DNA of 28,867 nucleotides from a virus. A model generated the notes under the pieces. The model was not told where the DNA came from and ran no database searches. It saw nothing but the letters and a program-made list of their open reading frames with translations. The stretch spans positions 1 through 28,867 of the IMG/VR virus record IMGVR_UViG_3300038620_000121; one strand, given 5' to 3'. A program made the position numbers and the translations under genes. The stretch's first letter is position 1. The number at the start of each line of letters is the position of its first letter. Positions 8,757-14,707 of this stretch are shown piece after piece.

Positions 8757-9203
8757 TTACACAAATACAATCTGTTTGCCAGCTTGAGCAGCAGCGATGG
8801 CCTTGTTGGCCTCGCCTGCTGTTAACAGGCCTTGCAGCCTGCGGACCTTGACATCTTCTTTCAAAGTCTTACCAGCAGTCGCTAGAATATCCTGTTCATA
8901 TTCATCGCCGGCCGCGATAAGATCCTCTACCTGGCTGCGAGAGGCATTGTTTTTGTTGAGGCCCAGCTCGACCTCAACTTGCTCCTTGGCCTGGGCCGGG
9001 GAGAAGATGCGCTCCAGCACGCGCATGCCGCGTGGGCCAGCGTACTGGATTGCGCGCAGGCTTTTGCTATCCTTAGCGAAAGCCCAAGCAGCACGCAAGG
9101 CACGGCTGAAATCGTAAACGTCGTAGCCTCCCTGTTCCCGAACTAGCGAGTGCGCGGCTTTCATAACTGTGCTTTTGTTGATGGTATTGGTCGTCGTCGT
9201 CAT
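8757..9203 (-). CDS. Unknown helical phage protein with an N-terminal motif common in phage early proteins
   Basis: 148 residues, beginning with a Thr/Asn-rich stretch (MTTTTNTINKSTVMKAAHSL) followed by GGYDVYDFSRALRAAWAFAK, a pattern like the short 'SxALKxAW' domain repeated in many phage and mobile-element proteins of unknown function. The remainder is charged, Ala-rich and helical. ATG 9203 is supported by the block 9204-9289, which is almost identical to the block before ATG 9794, so both genes seem to have the same promoter and leader. No enzymatic motif is seen. Confidence 0.6.
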   Translation of the reverse strand: MTTTTNTINKSTVMKAAHSLVREQGGYDVYDFSRALRAAWAFAKDSKSLRAIQYAGPRGMRVLERIFSPAQAKEQVEVELGLNKNNASRSQVEDLIAAGDEYEQDILATAGKTLKEDVKVRRLQGLLTAGEANKAIAAAQAGKQIVFV

Positions 9204-9289
9204 TTCCTTTTGCGTTGTTGCTTTCTACCACTAATATACGATTTATGAGGCCTCGCGTTACGTATAGCCCTAAGAAATTTCAATTTTTT
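9204..9289 (-). promoter_or_regulatory. Duplicated promoter-leader block, copy 1
   Basis: From the start codon upstream, 9201-9269 matches 9792-9860 with a single mismatch in 69 bases; similarity continues through an AT-rich stretch to about 9289. It contains the 8-bp palindrome GAGGCCTC, TATATTAG (a near match to the Bacteroidota -7 element TAnnTTTG) about 30 bases before the ATG, and AAAAGGAA just before the ATG. I see no clear -33 TTG at the usual distance, so the exact promoter is not settled. Confidence 0.6.
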
Positions 9290-9311: not shown

Positions 9312-9794
9312 TCAAGCCTCCCAAATACAGTAGTTGTGCCCAATATGCACAATGGGCAAAGCCTTCAGCTTAGCAGCTTCAACGCCGTCGGCGAACTCGT
9401 CAAACGCATCAGGAATGCGATCAACTTCTGCAAAAGCAATCACATCCTCCAGCGTCCAATCTTCAGGCAATACGTAGCAGGCCAATCCTGGGTGACGCAT
9501 GTCAACAGTCGCCCAGTACTTAACGCCTTTGTGTTTGAAAGGGCGCACCTCAACTTGCCCAATCATCAGCAGCTCATCATTAATAGCCTCAATGACATCC
9601 CGCTCTGGGAAAAACTCATCGAAGCCAATGCTAAACTGCGATTGGCCTTCCAGCTCTTCAGCAAGTTCATACGCAGTACCCTCGAAAGGGTAAGCGTCGC
9701 CGGCGCCGGCTGGGTCAATGACCTGCATGCCGTTCGCGGTAAAACCGCGCTCGAGGTCTTCGTTTAGGTGGTCAGTGTAGCGGAGAATGTACAT
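9312..9794 (-). CDS. Unknown acidic protein
   Basis: 160 residues, strongly acidic (about a fifth Asp/Glu), beginning MYILRYTDHLNEDLERGFTA and ending HIGHNYCIWEA. Segments such as EGTAYELAEELEGQSQFSIG and PEDWTLEDVIAFAEVDRIPD suggest alternating strands and acidic helices. No known catalytic motif is visible. It is the first gene after the terminator at 9908-9937 and has its own promoter-leader block, so it is probably expressed independently of the csf operon. The negative charge and small size would fit a DNA-mimic or inhibitor, but this is only a guess from composition. Confidence 0.6.
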   Translation of the reverse strand: MYILRYTDHLNEDLERGFTANGMQVIDPAGAGDAYPFEGTAYELAEELEGQSQFSIGFDEFFPERDVIEAINDELLMIGQVEVRPFKHKGVKYWATVDMRHPGLACYVLPEDWTLEDVIAFAEVDRIPDAFDEFADGVEAAKLKALPIVHIGHNYCIWEA

Positions 9795-9877
9795 TTCCTT
9801 TTGCGTTGTTGCTTTCTACCTCTAATATACGATTTATGAGGCCTCGCGTTACGTATAGCCAAGAAATTTTAATTTTT
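9795..9877 (-). promoter_or_regulatory. Duplicated promoter-leader block, copy 2
   Basis: Copy 2 of the block described at 9204-9289, directly upstream of ATG 9794. It sits between the terminator of the csf operon and this start codon, which is where a new promoter would be needed. The two genes behind the two copies encode unrelated proteins. Confidence 0.6.
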
Positions 9878-9907
9878 GCCTTTCCTCCACCAGGTCGTGT
9901 ACGGCAC

Positions 9908-9937
9908 AAAAAAGCCCCCGGCCAGCGGCGCGGGGGC
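9908..9937 (-). terminator. Rho-independent terminator at the end of the csf/methylase operon
   Basis: On the minus strand GCCCCCG (9937-9931) pairs with CGGGGGC (9920-9914) around a ten-base loop and is followed by six T (9913-9908). It lies 65 bases after the stop of the adenine methylase gene. A short open frame covers it (see rejected items). Confidence 0.85.
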
Positions 9938-10001
9938 GAACGATAATAACAAAGCGTAGATTACATAACCGATAAAAATTGCTCCGGCACCCAGCACGAT
10001 A

Positions 10002-10928
10002 CTAGTCAAACAGCTGGAGCTTTCCGGCTTGCAGCAGCTTCTGGCAACGCGGATTGATGTAAATGCTCTCCGTACGTGCTGCGTGCTGTAATCCGCTGCC
10101 TCGGCCCTGAAGCTTACTGCCCCGTATTCGTCCGGCCGCATTACTTGCTGTTTGCCTGTCATACCGCTCCCAGCCGTTCGCTTCTAACGGCTGGTATAAC
10201 TCATGCGCGTAGGCGCTCAGCGTTACGCTGCCTTGAAGCGTTAGCAATGTGTTGACAAGCTTAGTGTGATCTTCATTCTCAAGCTCGTGATCGTATACTT
10301 TCCCCTTTCGCGTATCATGCACGTAGGGCGGATCGACGTAGAAGATGGTGTCAGGGGTGTCGTACTGATCGAGCACGTACAATGCAGGACGACACTCAAT
10401 TTGAACACGGGCTATACGTTCGCGCCATGCTTGGAATAGCTGTTGCCGGCTTTGCCATTTATTGACCGTAGCAGCTTTATTATTATCACTTGTAGTTATG
10501 CACTTAGACCAATATCCGCTTGTTTTAGCATAGGGGCCAACACCACTAAAAGTTTGATTACAAAGTGTATAGAATGCCCAGGCACGCAACACATAAGATT
10601 GCGAGGGGGCTGGATTGTTATAAATGTGTATACTTCTTTCTAATTCGCTTCTACTATAGAGCGTATATTTGATTCGATACTCCAGCTCCTTGCTTGCTTC
10701 GGGGTCTTGTAGTACGCGAAACAGGTTGACGAGGTCTTCATGCAAGTCATTGTAAACCTCGACGCGCGAAGGCTCGCGCTGGAACAACAAACTTGCTGCG
10801 CCGCCAAAGGGCTCTACGTAGGTTCGCGCATACGGCACAAACTGGGCAATCCATGGCAACAAATTGCCTTTACCCCCAAACCATCTTACTGGTGCCATTG
10901 ATCGCCTTGCGACGTTATCCTTTATCAT
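10002..10928 (-). CDS. DNA adenine methyltransferase, D12 class (Dam-like)
   Basis: 308 residues; a second ATG at codon 11 is also possible. The N-terminal motif VRWFGGKGNLLPWI (FGGK at 17-20) is the SAM-binding motif of the D12 class, and DPPY at 199-202 is its catalytic motif; YVEPFGGAASLLF fits motif I context. The enzyme methylates adenine N6 in DNA; its target cannot be read from the sequence. It lies 12 bases after csf3 in the same direction and is the last gene before the terminator at 9908-9937. The stretch 10440-10670 is visibly more AT-rich than the rest, a possible sign of recombination in the specificity region. No restriction enzyme gene is adjacent, so it is an orphan methylase, perhaps protecting phage DNA. 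Confidence 0.92.
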   Translation of the reverse strand: MIKDNVARRSMAPVRWFGGKGNLLPWIAQFVPYARTYVEPFGGAASLLFQREPSRVEVYNDLHEDLVNLFRVLQDPEASKELEYRIKYTLYSRSELERSIHIYNNPAPSQSYVLRAWAFYTLCNQTFSGVGPYAKTSGYWSKCITTSDNNKAATVNKWQSRQQLFQAWRERIARVQIECRPALYVLDQYDTPDTIFYVDPPYVHDTRKGKVYDHELENEDHTKLVNTLLTLQGSVTLSAYAHELYQPLEANGWERYDRQTASNAAGRIRGSKLQGRGSGLQHAARTESIYINPRCQKLLQAGKLQLFD

Positions 10929-10940
10929 AGTTCTAATGAC

Positions 10941-11615
10941 TTACATAATCGCCAAAAACCCTTCTGGTACCCAGCACAGCTCCTGGTTGGCCGGGTGCCA
11001 GTACGGCGCGCGCCAGCCCGTGACGGCCTTGCCGTGTCCGTCCTCCATTGCTTCTGGAACGTACAAACGCACAGGATAAGGCCGCATGAGAGGAATCGGG
11101 TTGTACTCTTCGTAGCTCACTTCCTGCAGCGACAGCGTGCGGATGATCCCGTAGCCCTGCGAGGTTTTCTTGCCCATCGCAAAGACGTAGTCCTCCAGCA
11201 GCTGCTTGACGGCCGGGCCGTCGCCCTCAAAAAAAAACTCGCAGCACGGTATTGACTTGACTTGTAATGCCAGCGAGTAGCTTTTGTAATGTCCACGCCC
11301 CGTATCGACCTCGCGTTTGCCATTAAAGCGCGCGAGGTGGTCATGCTGGTTGTCCCAGCGTTTGTAATACCGCTGCTCGTCAACCGCGTAGCTGCTCCTG
11401 TCAAACAGCATCATGCTGGCAAGGGGCACGCCCTGGCCATCGTACTGGATCGGCATCGCGCTCAAGTCGATTATATCGTCCTCGCTCAACTGCGCCGGCT
11501 GCGGCGGCGGGCCGCCGTGCTGCTCGCGCAGCCACGCCCAGGCTACGACGCTGTCGAGGCAAATTGGCGTCGTAAAAGCGATATTGGTTTCAAAATATAC
11601 GGTGATCTTATACAT
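10941..11615 (-). CDS. csf3: Csf3-like (type IV Cas5) RAMP protein
   Basis: 224 residues, the normal Csf3 size. The N-terminal strand-helix unit (YKITVYFETNIAFTTPICLD, then SVVAWAW) has the Csf3/Cas5 pattern of a strand followed by an LD-containing helix. A glycine-rich RAMP loop GKKTSQGYG occupies 148-156, and the C-terminal part carries RPYPVRLYVPEA, GWRAPYWHPANQELCW, a pattern I associate with Csf3. In type IV complexes Csf3 holds the 5-prime end of the guide RNA and joins the Csf1 and Csf2 subunits. Here it is the third csf gene but is separated from csf2 by a methyltransferase gene, whose stop overlaps its start by eight bases. The family call is from motif and context; a structure comparison would decide it. 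Confidence 0.75.
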   Translation of the reverse strand: MYKITVYFETNIAFTTPICLDSVVAWAWLREQHGGPPPQPAQLSEDDIIDLSAMPIQYDGQGVPLASMMLFDRSSYAVDEQRYYKRWDNQHDHLARFNGKREVDTGRGHYKSYSLALQVKSIPCCEFFFEGDGPAVKQLLEDYVFAMGKKTSQGYGIIRTLSLQEVSYEEYNPIPLMRPYPVRLYVPEAMEDGHGKAVTGWRAPYWHPANQELCWVPEGFLAIM

Positions 11616-12093
11616 ATATATATCCGTAATAGCAATTGCCTGTTATATTCATTTCTAGCTTATAAGTATCACTTAAATATTGCAAACGGGGTTCTAAATC
11701 ATTTACAGCTCGAAGATTCCTGTAGTATTTAGGGCTACCGTCTGTAAAAAAGATAAGCTTATTAGAATACTGCGCGGCGATTTTTTCAATAAGATCAATT
11801 ATGCAGCCATAGGCATCTATATCAACAATATCGCCTAAATCAATTAAAGCTAGCGCTGCGTCAGAATAAGCATCTAGTTGATGCGTCGTTATTTTACGAC
11901 CTTGTAGTTCAAGAACACGAGAGTCTTTGTCGCACGCAATAACGCGATCACAAGCATGCGTCCAATACTGCGTTGTAAGCGTCCCGCTCCCGGCCATTAA
12001 CTCAATAACAACTGATTGATCGATAGCCGGGAAGCGAAACAATGCGTTGCGTAAGCGAGTCTTCGCGGCGTAGTCTGTATTATCAACCTTCAT
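11608..12093 (-). CDS. Small SAM-dependent methyltransferase inserted between csf2 and csf3
   Basis: 161 residues from ATG 12093, which lies one base after the csf2 stop; a frame five codons longer would overlap csf2. Motif I ELMAGSGT is at 31-38, an acidic motif II IACDKD at 52-57, and a motif IV-like DIDAYG at 91-96. The last resembles the D(I/V)DP(F/Y)G motif of Trm1-type N2-guanine tRNA methyltransferases, with Ala replacing Pro. A Tyr-rich C-terminus (ITGNCYYGYIYV) closes the fold. There is no target-recognition domain, so substrate could be RNA, DNA or a protein. The gene is clearly AT-rich (28% GC in 11641-11700) compared with csf2 (near 58% in a sample), suggesting separate origin, yet it is neatly coupled to both csf neighbours. 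Confidence 0.75.
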   Translation of the reverse strand: MKVDNTDYAAKTRLRNALFRFPAIDQSVVIELMAGSGTLTTQYWTHACDRVIACDKDSRVLELQGRKITTHQLDAYSDAALALIDLGDIVDIDAYGCIIDLIEKIAAQYSNKLIFFTDGSPKYYRNLRAVNDLEPRLQYLSDTYKLEMNITGNCYYGYIYV

Positions 12094-12094
12094 G

Positions 12095-13354
12095 CTACTG
12101 CTTGCCAAGTTGCTTCAGATGCTCCTTTTGGTAGTCAAGGTCACTCCAGAACTGCCGCGCCTGCTCGGCGACCTGCTCTATATGCTCGTAGTACTGCTGC
12201 GCCGAAGCCTTCAGCGCGCTGGTGTCGAGTTCCCATGCAACTTCGCCCATCCCGCGCGCGCTCTGGCCGCCCAGATAGCCGTACTGCTCCAGCAGCCTAA
12301 TACCCGCCAGTAGCGTTGCCGCGTCCAGGCCTTCCGCGTCGGCGTCCAGGCCAAACTTGCCCTGCAACTGTGTGCCGGTTGACAGGACCTCGTACTCGTA
12401 CTTCATTTGCGTCGGGTTCCCGTCCTCAGCGTCAAGAATCTTGATCTTGTCCTCTGTCTTGCTGCTGTCCATGCGTGTCCCGAACGCGCGGTCCAGCAGC
12501 GCCCAGTAGCTTGTGTCGCCGGTCCTGTGCTCTTTGCAGACCGGCTGCGCGGGCCCTGTCTTAAGCCGCCCTTGGATCGTCTGATTGCCGACGGCCGACC
12601 CTAGTAGCCCCAGCACGGGGCATAGGCGGATCATCTCCTCGCGCGTCGCGATCTGCTCTTTGCCGGTGCTCTCTGTGATAGCGCCCCCTGTAAACAGCAT
12701 GTGATAGAGCTTTGCCGGCATGCCATCCAGGCCGATGTGCTCGCAGTAATCGTACATCATGATGCGCCGCAACAATCCGCGTACGCTGTTGCCGCTCAGC
12801 ACGGGGATCTCGTAGTAGCTCTTCTCAATCGTCAAGGGCGTGCCGGACGGCAGCTCGCCGCTGCTGTCAGCAAAAGGATCATCGCTCTTGTCCTTGCGCA
12901 TGCGCAGCATGAGCTGCAAGTAGTTCGTCTCATGACGAATCAACATCAGCAGCTCCTCGTCATCAAAGCGCGCGAGCGCCTCGGCCGCGTCCTGCGCGTA
13001 CGATGAATCCAGCGACTGGATGTCCCAGGCGGCCATCAGCTCGTTGAGCCACTCCGCCTTGTTCTTGACGCCCGTGCTGTTCGCCAGCTTGTTGGCGAAC
13101 TCCTCCCAGATGTTGTACAGCCGCCGCTGTTCCATGCCCGCTGTGTCAATTGAGCGATAAACCGCGAGCAGGATAGTGACCAGGGCCTGCCGCCGCTCGT
13201 GCTCGCTGTAAAAATTGCTCGTGCGCTTGTCGGGGTTCGGGCAATGCACGCGCTCGCGGCGCATCTGCCGCAGCGTGCCTCGCGTTTGATCGCTCCCGGT
13301 ATGCAGGGGCGCCTTGCAGGTGATCGTGTAGGGTACTCTAATCATTGTTGTCAA
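12095..13354 (-). CDS. csf2: Csf2-like (type IV Cas7) RAMP backbone protein
   Basis: 419 residues; ATG at codon 4 is an alternative start. Cas7 signatures in order: a first strand with APLHTGSD at 15-22, IPVLSGNSVRGLLRR at 183-197 (the conserved SGNSxRGxLRR motif), LCPVLGLLGSAVGNQTIQGR at 244-263, EYEVLSTGTQLQGKF at 321-335, and the glycine-rich loop GYLGGQSARGMGEV at 359-372. Csf2 polymerises along the guide RNA as the backbone of type IV complexes. The protein is longer than the roughly 330-350 residues I expect; the excess is a helical, charged block at about 50-165. It overlaps csf1 by 17 bases. No Csm3-type cleavage residue can be assigned with confidence. Confidence 0.82.
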   Translation of the reverse strand: MTTMIRVPYTITCKAPLHTGSDQTRGTLRQMRRERVHCPNPDKRTSNFYSEHERRQALVTILLAVYRSIDTAGMEQRRLYNIWEEFANKLANSTGVKNKAEWLNELMAAWDIQSLDSSYAQDAAEALARFDDEELLMLIRHETNYLQLMLRMRKDKSDDPFADSSGELPSGTPLTIEKSYYEIPVLSGNSVRGLLRRIMMYDYCEHIGLDGMPAKLYHMLFTGGAITESTGKEQIATREEMIRLCPVLGLLGSAVGNQTIQGRLKTGPAQPVCKEHRTGDTSYWALLDRAFGTRMDSSKTEDKIKILDAEDGNPTQMKYEYEVLSTGTQLQGKFGLDADAEGLDAATLLAGIRLLEQYGYLGGQSARGMGEVAWELDTSALKASAQQYYEHIEQVAEQARQFWSDLDYQKEHLKQLGKQ

Positions 13355-14129
13355 GTTCTGTAGGGTTTAACAAATACACAAGAAATTGAAATTGGGGCTT
13401 GTATAACTCGAACTGGATGCAGCTGATGTAATAGCGAAAGGTTTGAAAGTCAAACTGCTGGATAAAGCGCTGGGCTTTATTAGGAGGCAGCTCGCCCGTG
13501 AGGATATCCTGCTTGCTGAAGAAGGGATACTTTTGCCCGGGCGGCTTGCTGTACAGCATGCGCGCGGCCATAAAGGCCTCGCTGGTCAGCCAGCGGCGGC
13601 TGAGCTGCAGCTGCCCCGCGTCCGTGCCGATGCGGAGTACGTCGTCGCCGGGATTGTTGACCGCCGCGTTCAGCCAATGCAGCTTCTTATAGCTTTCAGC
13701 GACCGAAAGCACGAACCGGCCGCGCGGCGGCATGCGCAGAACGTCGAGAATGTCGCTGCGCTGAATTTGATGCAGCCCGGCGCTGTAGTGCGCGCGCGTC
13801 AGCTCGACGGAGACCGACCGCCATTGCAGTTGCTCTTCGTCTTGCTCCGTGACGAGCAAATTCGCTTGTCGAAGCTGGCGCTTGATAGCGCCATCGGCGT
13901 TGGGGAGGCAAGGCAGGAAACACTTCGCTGTATTGACGCTGACGTACTGCGAATCGTAAGGGATCGCATCGTAGCCTGTAAAGTTGCTGCTCAGCACCTG
14001 CGATAGGCGTACCCCCTTGTTGATGCGCTCTCCCGTGAACGCACAGACCTGCTCGTTGCGAAACGCTAAGATCCGGCTGGGCTGGGCGTGTAGGTATTTC
14101 GCGATAAAATCGATGGCTGTCATGCTCAA
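13338..14129 (-). CDS. csf1: Csf1-like (type IV Cas8-like large subunit)
   Basis: 263 residues, close to Csf1 length. The N-terminal segment VCAFTGERINKGVRLSQVLS then SNFTGYDAIPYDSQYVSVNT, with C70 and C74 following, matches the Csf1 zinc-finger region: a CxxCG knuckle, a conserved FTxYD stretch and a second Cys pair. The second Cys of the first knuckle is replaced by Thr32. The segment SVAESYKKLHWLNAAVN at 142-158 resembles the (S)xQKHxxxxAPVN motif of Csf1. Csf1 caps the type IV effector at the guide 5-prime handle. The ATG overlaps the nucleotidyltransferase stop by four bases. Csf1 families are diverged, so the call leans on both motifs and on the following csf2. Confidence 0.72.
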   Translation of the reverse strand: MSMTAIDFIAKYLHAQPSRILAFRNEQVCAFTGERINKGVRLSQVLSSNFTGYDAIPYDSQYVSVNTAKCFLPCLPNADGAIKRQLRQANLLVTEQDEEQLQWRSVSVELTRAHYSAGLHQIQRSDILDVLRMPPRGRFVLSVAESYKKLHWLNAAVNNPGDDVLRIGTDAGQLQLSRRWLTSEAFMAARMLYSKPPGQKYPFFSKQDILTGELPPNKAQRFIQQFDFQTFRYYISCIQFELYKPQFQFLVYLLNPTELDNND

Positions 14130-14707
14130 ATACCTTTCAAATGCGCTTTATAACTATCCCGCTGATGCGGCGGCAACCAGGGCAGACCGGCCAAGTCAAA
14201 CACGTCTTGCTCGTGCAGCACGTGAACCACCTGCTGCGTCCGCCGGCTCCATACATGCCCGTCGTGCATATAATAGCCCTGTCGTTTGAGCTGCTGCATA
14301 ACGTACGCACTAAAGCCGGCTTCGCCCCCGGGCCCTGTGCGGATAAGATACTGAATACCCCAGTTCAATGGCGAGCACATAAAGAGGTCAACCTTCATGC
14401 CCTTGTAAGTAAACTTGCAATAGCGGCCGGTCTTAGGCTCGCCTTTCGCAACTTGCGAGCGCTCTTGCCAGCCGCGCACGAGCTTGCAAAAGCCGTCGTT
14501 GTGGACGGCAGGCCCGGCGTCTTCAAAAAGGGATTGCATCTTGTTGACATAAGGGATGCAGACTACCTCAATGTCTTTCACGCGCTCGCGCTGGCGGCGA
14601 ATGCTCCCGGCGATCTCGATCGCTGCGCAGTGCGGGGCCAGCGCCTCCTTCAGCTCTTGCGCGATCGGTTCAATAGTTTCTAGCGCTACTTTTTCGTCAT
14701 CGTTCAT
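14126..14707 (-). CDS. DNA polymerase X-type nucleotidyltransferase
   Basis: 193 residues. GSIRR at 34-38 followed by VKDIEVV (Asp45, Glu47) and VDLFM (Asp107) give the G-S, D-x-D/E and third carboxylate motifs of the polymerase beta/X palm. The motif NWGIQYLIRTGPGG, then a region with SRRTQQVVHVLHEQDVF, matches the short phage-encoded versions of this family that lack the 8-kDa lyase and helix-hairpin-helix domains. Reaction class: transfer of a nucleotide to a nucleic acid end or other acceptor. AAGGAGG precedes the ATG, which overlaps the ASCH gene stop by four bases; its stop overlaps csf1 by four bases. Such genes occur in many phages, so its linkage to csf genes may be functional or incidental. 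Confidence 0.85.
   Translation of the reverse strand: MNDDEKVALETIEPIAQELKEALAPHCAAIEIAGSIRRQRERVKDIEVVCIPYVNKMQSLFEDAGPAVHNDGFCKLVRGWQERSQVAKGEPKTGRYCKFTYKGMKVDLFMCSPLNWGIQYLIRTGPGGEAGFSAYVMQQLKRQGYYMHDGHVWSRRTQQVVHVLHEQDVFDLAGLPWLPPHQRDSYKAHLKGI

Follow-up and report, generated by a model that had tools for sequence, protein, structure and literature searches.

The csf operon of a viral record raises the question of why a gene for a SAM-dependent methyltransferase-fold enzyme should lie between csf2 and csf3, and what its product might do there. In the open-access literature searched, no report was found of a methyltransferase gene within the csf operon of a type IV locus. The stretch of DNA analyzed here (the window) is the whole viral record, 28,867 bp, with Mu-like head genes, a terminase gene and a tyrosine integrase gene. 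The integrase is of the arm/SAM-like tyrosine type, which is common in Bacteroidota.

The csf operon of the window

Four genes form a tight operon on the minus strand, in which the junctions are either overlaps or one-base gaps: csf1 (Cas8-like, 261 amino acids; positions 13338 to 14123; PADLOC Csf1_0_IV, 3.2e-13), csf2 (Cas7, 416 amino acids; 12095 to 13345; Csf2_0_IV, 6.9e-47), the gene for the enzyme in the csf2/csf3 slot (161 amino acids; 11608 to 12093; recognized from its open reading frame, an AF2 model and homologs in the same slot), and csf3 (Cas5, 224 amino acids; 10941 to 11615; Csf3_0_IV, 1.5e-33). The match of csf3 to the NCBIfam model cas5_csf3 (1.5e-16) was under the curated cut-off. 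The ATG of the slot enzyme gene (12093 to 12091) follows the csf2 stop codon TAG (12097 to 12095) after a single base, giving the junction TAG C ATG, and the csf3 start at 11615 creates an 8-bp overlap with the slot enzyme gene; the coordinates in the first-pass annotation were exact. A PolX-like protein is encoded directly upstream of csf1 (14126 to 14707, minus strand; Pfam DNA_pol_B_thumb, 1.2e-7), and a D12-class N6-adenine DNA methyltransferase is encoded directly downstream of csf3 (10002 to 10928, minus strand; Pfam MethyltransfD12, 4e-22).

A Cas11 small-subunit domain was detected within csf2, at residues 52 to 153 (12887 to 13192, minus strand; PADLOC Cas11_1_IV, 3.3e-14); the residue range was taken on a 414-amino-acid reference, so that the nucleotide limits are accurate to about 6 bp. 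In the alignment this domain is an internal insertion near the N terminus of Csf2, which yields a single Cas7-Cas11 protein in a type IV-B-like system. The same single-gene fusion was present in four other loci (L009, L010, L011, and L012), and the five loci belong to one supported clade.

The presence of csf1, csf2, csf3, and a Cas11 domain is shared with type IV-B systems such as the Csf complex of Mycobacterium sp. JS623 (PMC7937560), and the tree places the core proteins of the window within the CysH-bearing IV-B loci. As expected of type IV-B, no CRISPR-like direct repeats were found in the window record. Unlike type IV-B, however, the window lacks CysH and has a methyltransferase-fold gene in its slot, and its Cas11 domain resides inside Csf2. 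No PF01507 domain was found in the record, but the record may be a fragment, and thus the locus is best called IV-B-like. The Fuxivirus IV-B locus is likewise a virus-borne IV-B core without adaptation genes, but in that locus CysH adjoins csf3, a mini-array is present, and the DNA methyltransferase is described as stand-alone (PMC10848311).

The slot enzyme gene differs from its neighbors in composition, as the first-pass annotation had remarked. Its GC content is 0.40 (0.28 in positions 11641 to 11700), whereas csf2 has 0.61 and csf3 has 0.58. Across the record, only 0.2% of 486-bp windows are equally AT-rich, and the sole stretch with a GC content of ≤0.42 (11514 to 12133) is the slot enzyme gene itself, which fits the expectation for a recent import. 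The corresponding genes of three other loci (L017, L055, and L063) are also lower in GC than the adjoining csf2, by a smaller margin. The slot enzyme is probably co-translated with the csf operon and was probably acquired horizontally.

Exchange of CysH and the slot enzyme

A search seeded with csf2 relatives yielded 80 viral loci, in which csf1, cas11, csf2, csf3, and cysH were located with iterated profiles. Both csf2 and csf3 were present in 84 loci, a set that includes plasmid loci, one phage record, the window, and a locus from a Bacteroidales metagenome-assembled genome (MAG; L095). CysH lies between csf2 and csf3 in 24 of the 84 (a few near-identical contigs are among the 24) and elsewhere nearby in 45, and it was absent from the stretch in 10. 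The assertion in the first-pass annotation that csf2 and csf3 are normally adjacent in type IV loci thus holds only in part, as CysH intervenes in these 24 loci. The enzyme of the window occupies the csf2/csf3 slot in five loci: the window, L017, L055, L063, and L095.

The Pfam domain PAPS_reduct (PF01507) was not found anywhere in the whole records of the window (28.9 kb), L017, L063, or L055. It was present in the records of CysH-slot relatives that served as positive controls (L009, L012, L044, L026, and L054). The L095 genome does encode PAPS_reduct genes, yet none is on its csf contig. A profile of the slot enzyme had no match in nine relative records and matched the L095 genome at 1.7e-67; both CysH and the slot enzyme were detected together in none of the virus records examined. 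Because virus records may be fragments, CysH could be encoded elsewhere in enzyme-bearing genomes. Among 395 genomes sampled from the phylum to which the L095 genome belongs, no further enzyme-bearing locus was found, and the csf2 locus of one of these (G375) has CysH in the slot. A TerL query recovered one identical 5.8-kb contig that ends short of csf, and the primase of the window retrieved no near-identical phage contig. The slot enzyme almost certainly takes the place of CysH, the type IV-B signature gene.

In order to follow the history of the slot, the presence of the enzyme was compared with a tree of csf2 plus csf3, from which columns filled in <70% of rows, and hence those of the Cas11 insertion, had been dropped. 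The enzyme state requires at least four changes on this tree, all forced by well-supported branches. The window falls among L009 to L012, which have CysH; L017 is placed with L026, L063 with L044, and L055 plus L095 beside L054 and L059. A tree built with greater care for the best-sampled clade gave the same picture. The csf proteins of the window are on a long branch in a clade with L009 to L012 that has 100% support. The Cas11 insertion common to these loci, the columns of which were absent from the tree, corroborates this placement. The approximately unbiased (AU) test rejected a single clade of L055, L095, and L063 (p = 6e-7), as well as one to which L017 was added (p = 6e-64). As judged from these sequence comparisons, CysH and the slot enzyme have been exchanged at least four times, each time among CysH-bearing relatives. 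Such counts do not distinguish gain from loss and the kinship of the enzymes roughly tracks the csf tree, so repeated gain and the repeated overwriting by CysH of an old enzyme allele are equally possible; under either history the two genes have traded places. The gene had been described as spliced between csf2 and csf3, which is correct as to position but incomplete, because the gene replaces CysH, and this in at least four separate csf lineages. The first-pass annotation had also named absence of the gene from otherwise identical csf loci of near relatives as a refutation of its reading. L009 to L012, the nearest csf relatives, do lack the enzyme. In these loci, however, CysH is found between csf2 and csf3, so that the absence of the enzyme does not refute a link to the csf operon, and the presence of CysH in its stead strengthens the finding.

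Where the DNA is still alignable, the swap is gene precise. The flanking DNA of L095 and L059 is 82 to 85% identical on both sides of the slot; homology is lost no more than about 10 bp from the csf2 stop and restarts exactly at the csf3 ATG. The stop-start overlap TAATG is identical with either CysH or the slot enzyme. CysH variants have been swapped as well: L059 and L062, which share 90% of csf2, have only 32% of CysH in common, and L062 groups with L028 in the CysH tree.

Other genes also occupy the slot. In L071 (9362 to 11013) it contains a 306-amino-acid protein without an assigned family, about 32% identical to Cronobacter and Citrobacter phage proteins, and a 245-amino-acid protein with a weak match to queuine tRNA-ribosyltransferase (E value, 0.007); no PAPS_reduct domain was found in the whole 47-kb L071 record. 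In L054 (8771 to 11224), IbrA-like DUF3440/PAPS and ParB-like (ParB_N, IbrB-like) proteins are encoded beside CysH. CysH of L018 is followed in the slot (9484 to 10409) by a dual-specificity-type phosphatase and a SpoU-family RNA methylase (1.4e-8), and a MazG-like gene is also present in the slot of L012. Several of the recognizable occupants are enzymes of the nucleic acid modification type, which is suggestive without being proof. DUF3440 genes were also observed near csf genes on two haloarchaeal plasmids (L003 and L007).

Fold and sequence relationships of the slot enzyme

Searches with the window protein alone revealed no close relative among phages, plasmids, or contigs of viral and genomic origin; homologs surfaced only via csf2 relatives and alignments. 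In pairwise phmmer comparisons the window protein matched the enzymes of L017 (6e-13), L063 (7e-13), and L055 (1e-8). A model built from the single sequence (pLDDT, 43) gave a fold search without meaning, and the AF2 model from an alignment of 20 sequences (pLDDT, 85.3; pTM, 0.83) was used instead. The model is compact and shows the topology of a minimal class I SAM enzyme, in which all seven strands and the helices follow the class I order. VIA-align gave Z scores of 13 to 15 versus many SAM-dependent methyltransferases. Z was ≥8 for 965 of 1,000 chains, so that structure does not discriminate the substrate: protein and small-molecule methyltransferases matched at equal strength, and Trm1 structures were not among the fold matches listed.

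In SAM motif I (ELMAGSGT, residues 31 to 38; 11980 to 12003, minus strand), A34, G35, and G37 do not vary among the four csf-linked members, and G35 is invariant across all 20 aligned members. In motif IV (DIDAYG, residues 91 to 96; 11806 to 11823, minus strand), D91, D93, Y95, and G96 are invariant in 20 of 20, and the pattern D-x-D-[A/S]-Y-G is kept throughout. Both sites accordingly look intact. The modeled protein thus has the class I SAM-dependent methyltransferase fold in complete form, its SAM site is intact, and the first-pass assignment to the SAM methyltransferases is upheld at the level of the fold. The dN/dS ratio for the L055 and L095 enzymes is about 0.12, indicating purifying selection. 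A random insertion or pseudogene is ruled out by the recurrence of the gene, its conserved motifs, and this ratio.

The profile links of the enzyme point, weakly, to RNA-acting families. Alone, the window protein had sub-threshold Pfam matches to Cons_hypoth95 (E value, 0.005) and RrnaAD (0.13). The L017 enzyme passed the RrnaAD cut-off (26.9 bits versus 24) and matched TRM5-TYW2 at 2.6e-4 and TRM at 0.005. The best solved-structure match of a four-row profile was PH0793, an archaeal Taw2 (Taw2/Trm5-like), at 1.9e-4. Taw2 transfers an aminocarboxypropyl group from SAM rather than a methyl group, and thus "methyltransferase" is a fold-level name for the slot enzyme, which may transfer some other group. 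Trm5/Taw2 (PF02475; PH0793) and Trm1 (PF02005) share the class I fold and the motif I region with the slot enzyme, and Trm1 additionally shares a D-x-D-x-[FY]-G motif. The slot enzyme lacks the RNA-binding domains of these proteins, however; matches of its relatives were weak or sub-threshold (E values, 1e-4 to 5e-3), and the window protein had none. RrnaAD (KsgA/Erm) and RsmD (Cons_hypoth95) enzymes have the same fold but a different motif IV, and the window protein was sub-threshold to both.

The resemblance of DIDAYG to the Trm1 motif had been read as a hint of an RNA or base-N2 target. A nucleic acid substrate is plausible, but the Trm1 link is weak and guanine N2 is not established. The window protein had no match to Pfam TRM (PF02005), only 3 of the 20 relatives matched, all below threshold (best, 17.0 and 16.6 bits versus a cut-off of 27), and the solved structure that the profile matched best was the Taw2/Trm5-like PH0793. 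The conserved D-x-D-[A/S]-Y-G agrees with the Trm1 motif DxDP[FY]G except at the proline, which is replaced.

A wider standalone family (L091 to L094, L096 to L111, and L113 to L115; about 170 to 200 amino acids) occurs in phages and mostly Clostridia MAGs and displays the pattern TDN..K..R...AG...D-x-D-[A/S]-Y-G. The members tested had no Pfam or PHROG match above cut-off. No csf genes were seen near these relatives, which indicates that the enzyme is not dependent on Csf.

Possible substrates and rival explanations

The CysH gene has been named as the probable key to the role of type IV-B systems (PMC8175902, PMC7937560). CysH-like proteins belong to the PP-loop group, which includes nucleic acid modifiers such as DndC, although the IV-B CysH has been argued to be an unlikely phosphorothioate maker (PMC8175902); the RNAs on which the Csf complex assembles are heterogeneous and of non-CRISPR origin (PMC7937560). 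If an enzyme related to RNA methyltransferases can fill in for CysH, the simplest activity that the two would have in common, as we infer, is to modify covalently a nucleic acid that the Csf complex handles. We lean slightly toward the slot enzyme being a catalytic accessory that stands in for CysH and probably modifies Csf-bound or Csf-targeted RNA. Nucleic acid is a likely substrate, and the chances that the modification is coupled to the Csf complex appear evenly balanced. Such an accessory would be functionally interchangeable with the PP-loop enzyme CysH, and the task common to both would be to modify a nucleic acid covalently, RNA being the most likely kind. Candidates for this RNA are the guide, a target, and any host RNA that the Csf filament holds. 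Coupling to the complex would come through co-translation, perhaps contact, and variation in the slot would arise if different modifications or target specificities were favored against different hosts or rivals. Fibrillarin in the box C/D ribonucleoprotein, which carries out RNA-guided 2′-O-methylation, offers a precedent in which RNA guides a small SAM enzyme; it was among the fold matches (Z, about 13.5), but it has no sequence relation to the slot enzyme, and a common Rossmann fold shows no function.

The main rival explanation is that the csf2/csf3 junction is a tolerated cargo site, whose genes encode independent counter-defense or self-marking enzymes that use the csf promoter and do not act with Csf. 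The standalone relatives without csf are in keeping with this idea, as are the other cargo in the slot (the IbrA/IbrB-like proteins of L054, the phosphatase of L018, and the MazG-like gene of L012) and the faster turnover of slot genes than of csf genes. Mere tolerance of cargo accords poorly with the facts that CysH or a substitute is nearly always kept, that the exchange is one for one with conserved stop-start overlaps, that the two genes co-occurred in zero virus records examined, and that CysH almost always accompanies IV-B (PMC7937560). We thus regard a cargo site as rather unlikely.

It seems improbable that the slot enzyme methylates a protein, such as a Csf subunit or a host factor, and thereby switches the complex on or off. 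The fold is equally close in Z score to the protein methyltransferases PrmA and NTMT1, but the sequence profiles indicate RNA-acting families, D-x-D-[A/S]-Y-G looks like a base-methylating motif IV, and PP-loop CysH-like enzymes have kin acting on nucleic acids. Marginally less probable still is an anti-restriction DNA methyltransferase that shields phage DNA from host nucleases, like the downstream D12 enzyme. DNA methyltransferases are common in phages and the D12 gene adjoins csf3; however, the slot enzyme has no match to DNA methyltransferase families or to PADLOC restriction-modification models, has no DPPY/NPPY motif, and at 161 amino acids has no target-recognition domain.

The repeated exchange of CysH and the slot enzyme suggests that IV-B systems work through a nucleic acid-modifying enzyme. 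It is a more tentative proposition, for which the chances seem less than even, that phage IV-B Csf complexes in general are RNA-guided or RNA-bound nucleic acid modifiers with an interchangeable csf2-csf3 module, consisting mostly of CysH variants, of the slot enzyme family in at least four lineages, and possibly of a transglycosylase-like enzyme (L071). The several one-for-one replacements of CysH by an unrelated enzyme with tractable chemistry amount to a natural substitution experiment. Assays of SAM-dependent transfer are far simpler than those of CysH chemistry, and thus the purified Csf complex together with the slot enzyme offers a route to the IV-B substrate, and RNA-coupled modification by a CRISPR-derived complex becomes testable through the slot enzyme.

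Elsewhere in the window, a 69-bp direct repeat with 99% identity (9201 to 9269 and 9792 to 9860) was observed. Its copies lie at the start of two adjoining small genes (8757 to 9203 and 9312 to 9794) and may be duplicated promoter regions.
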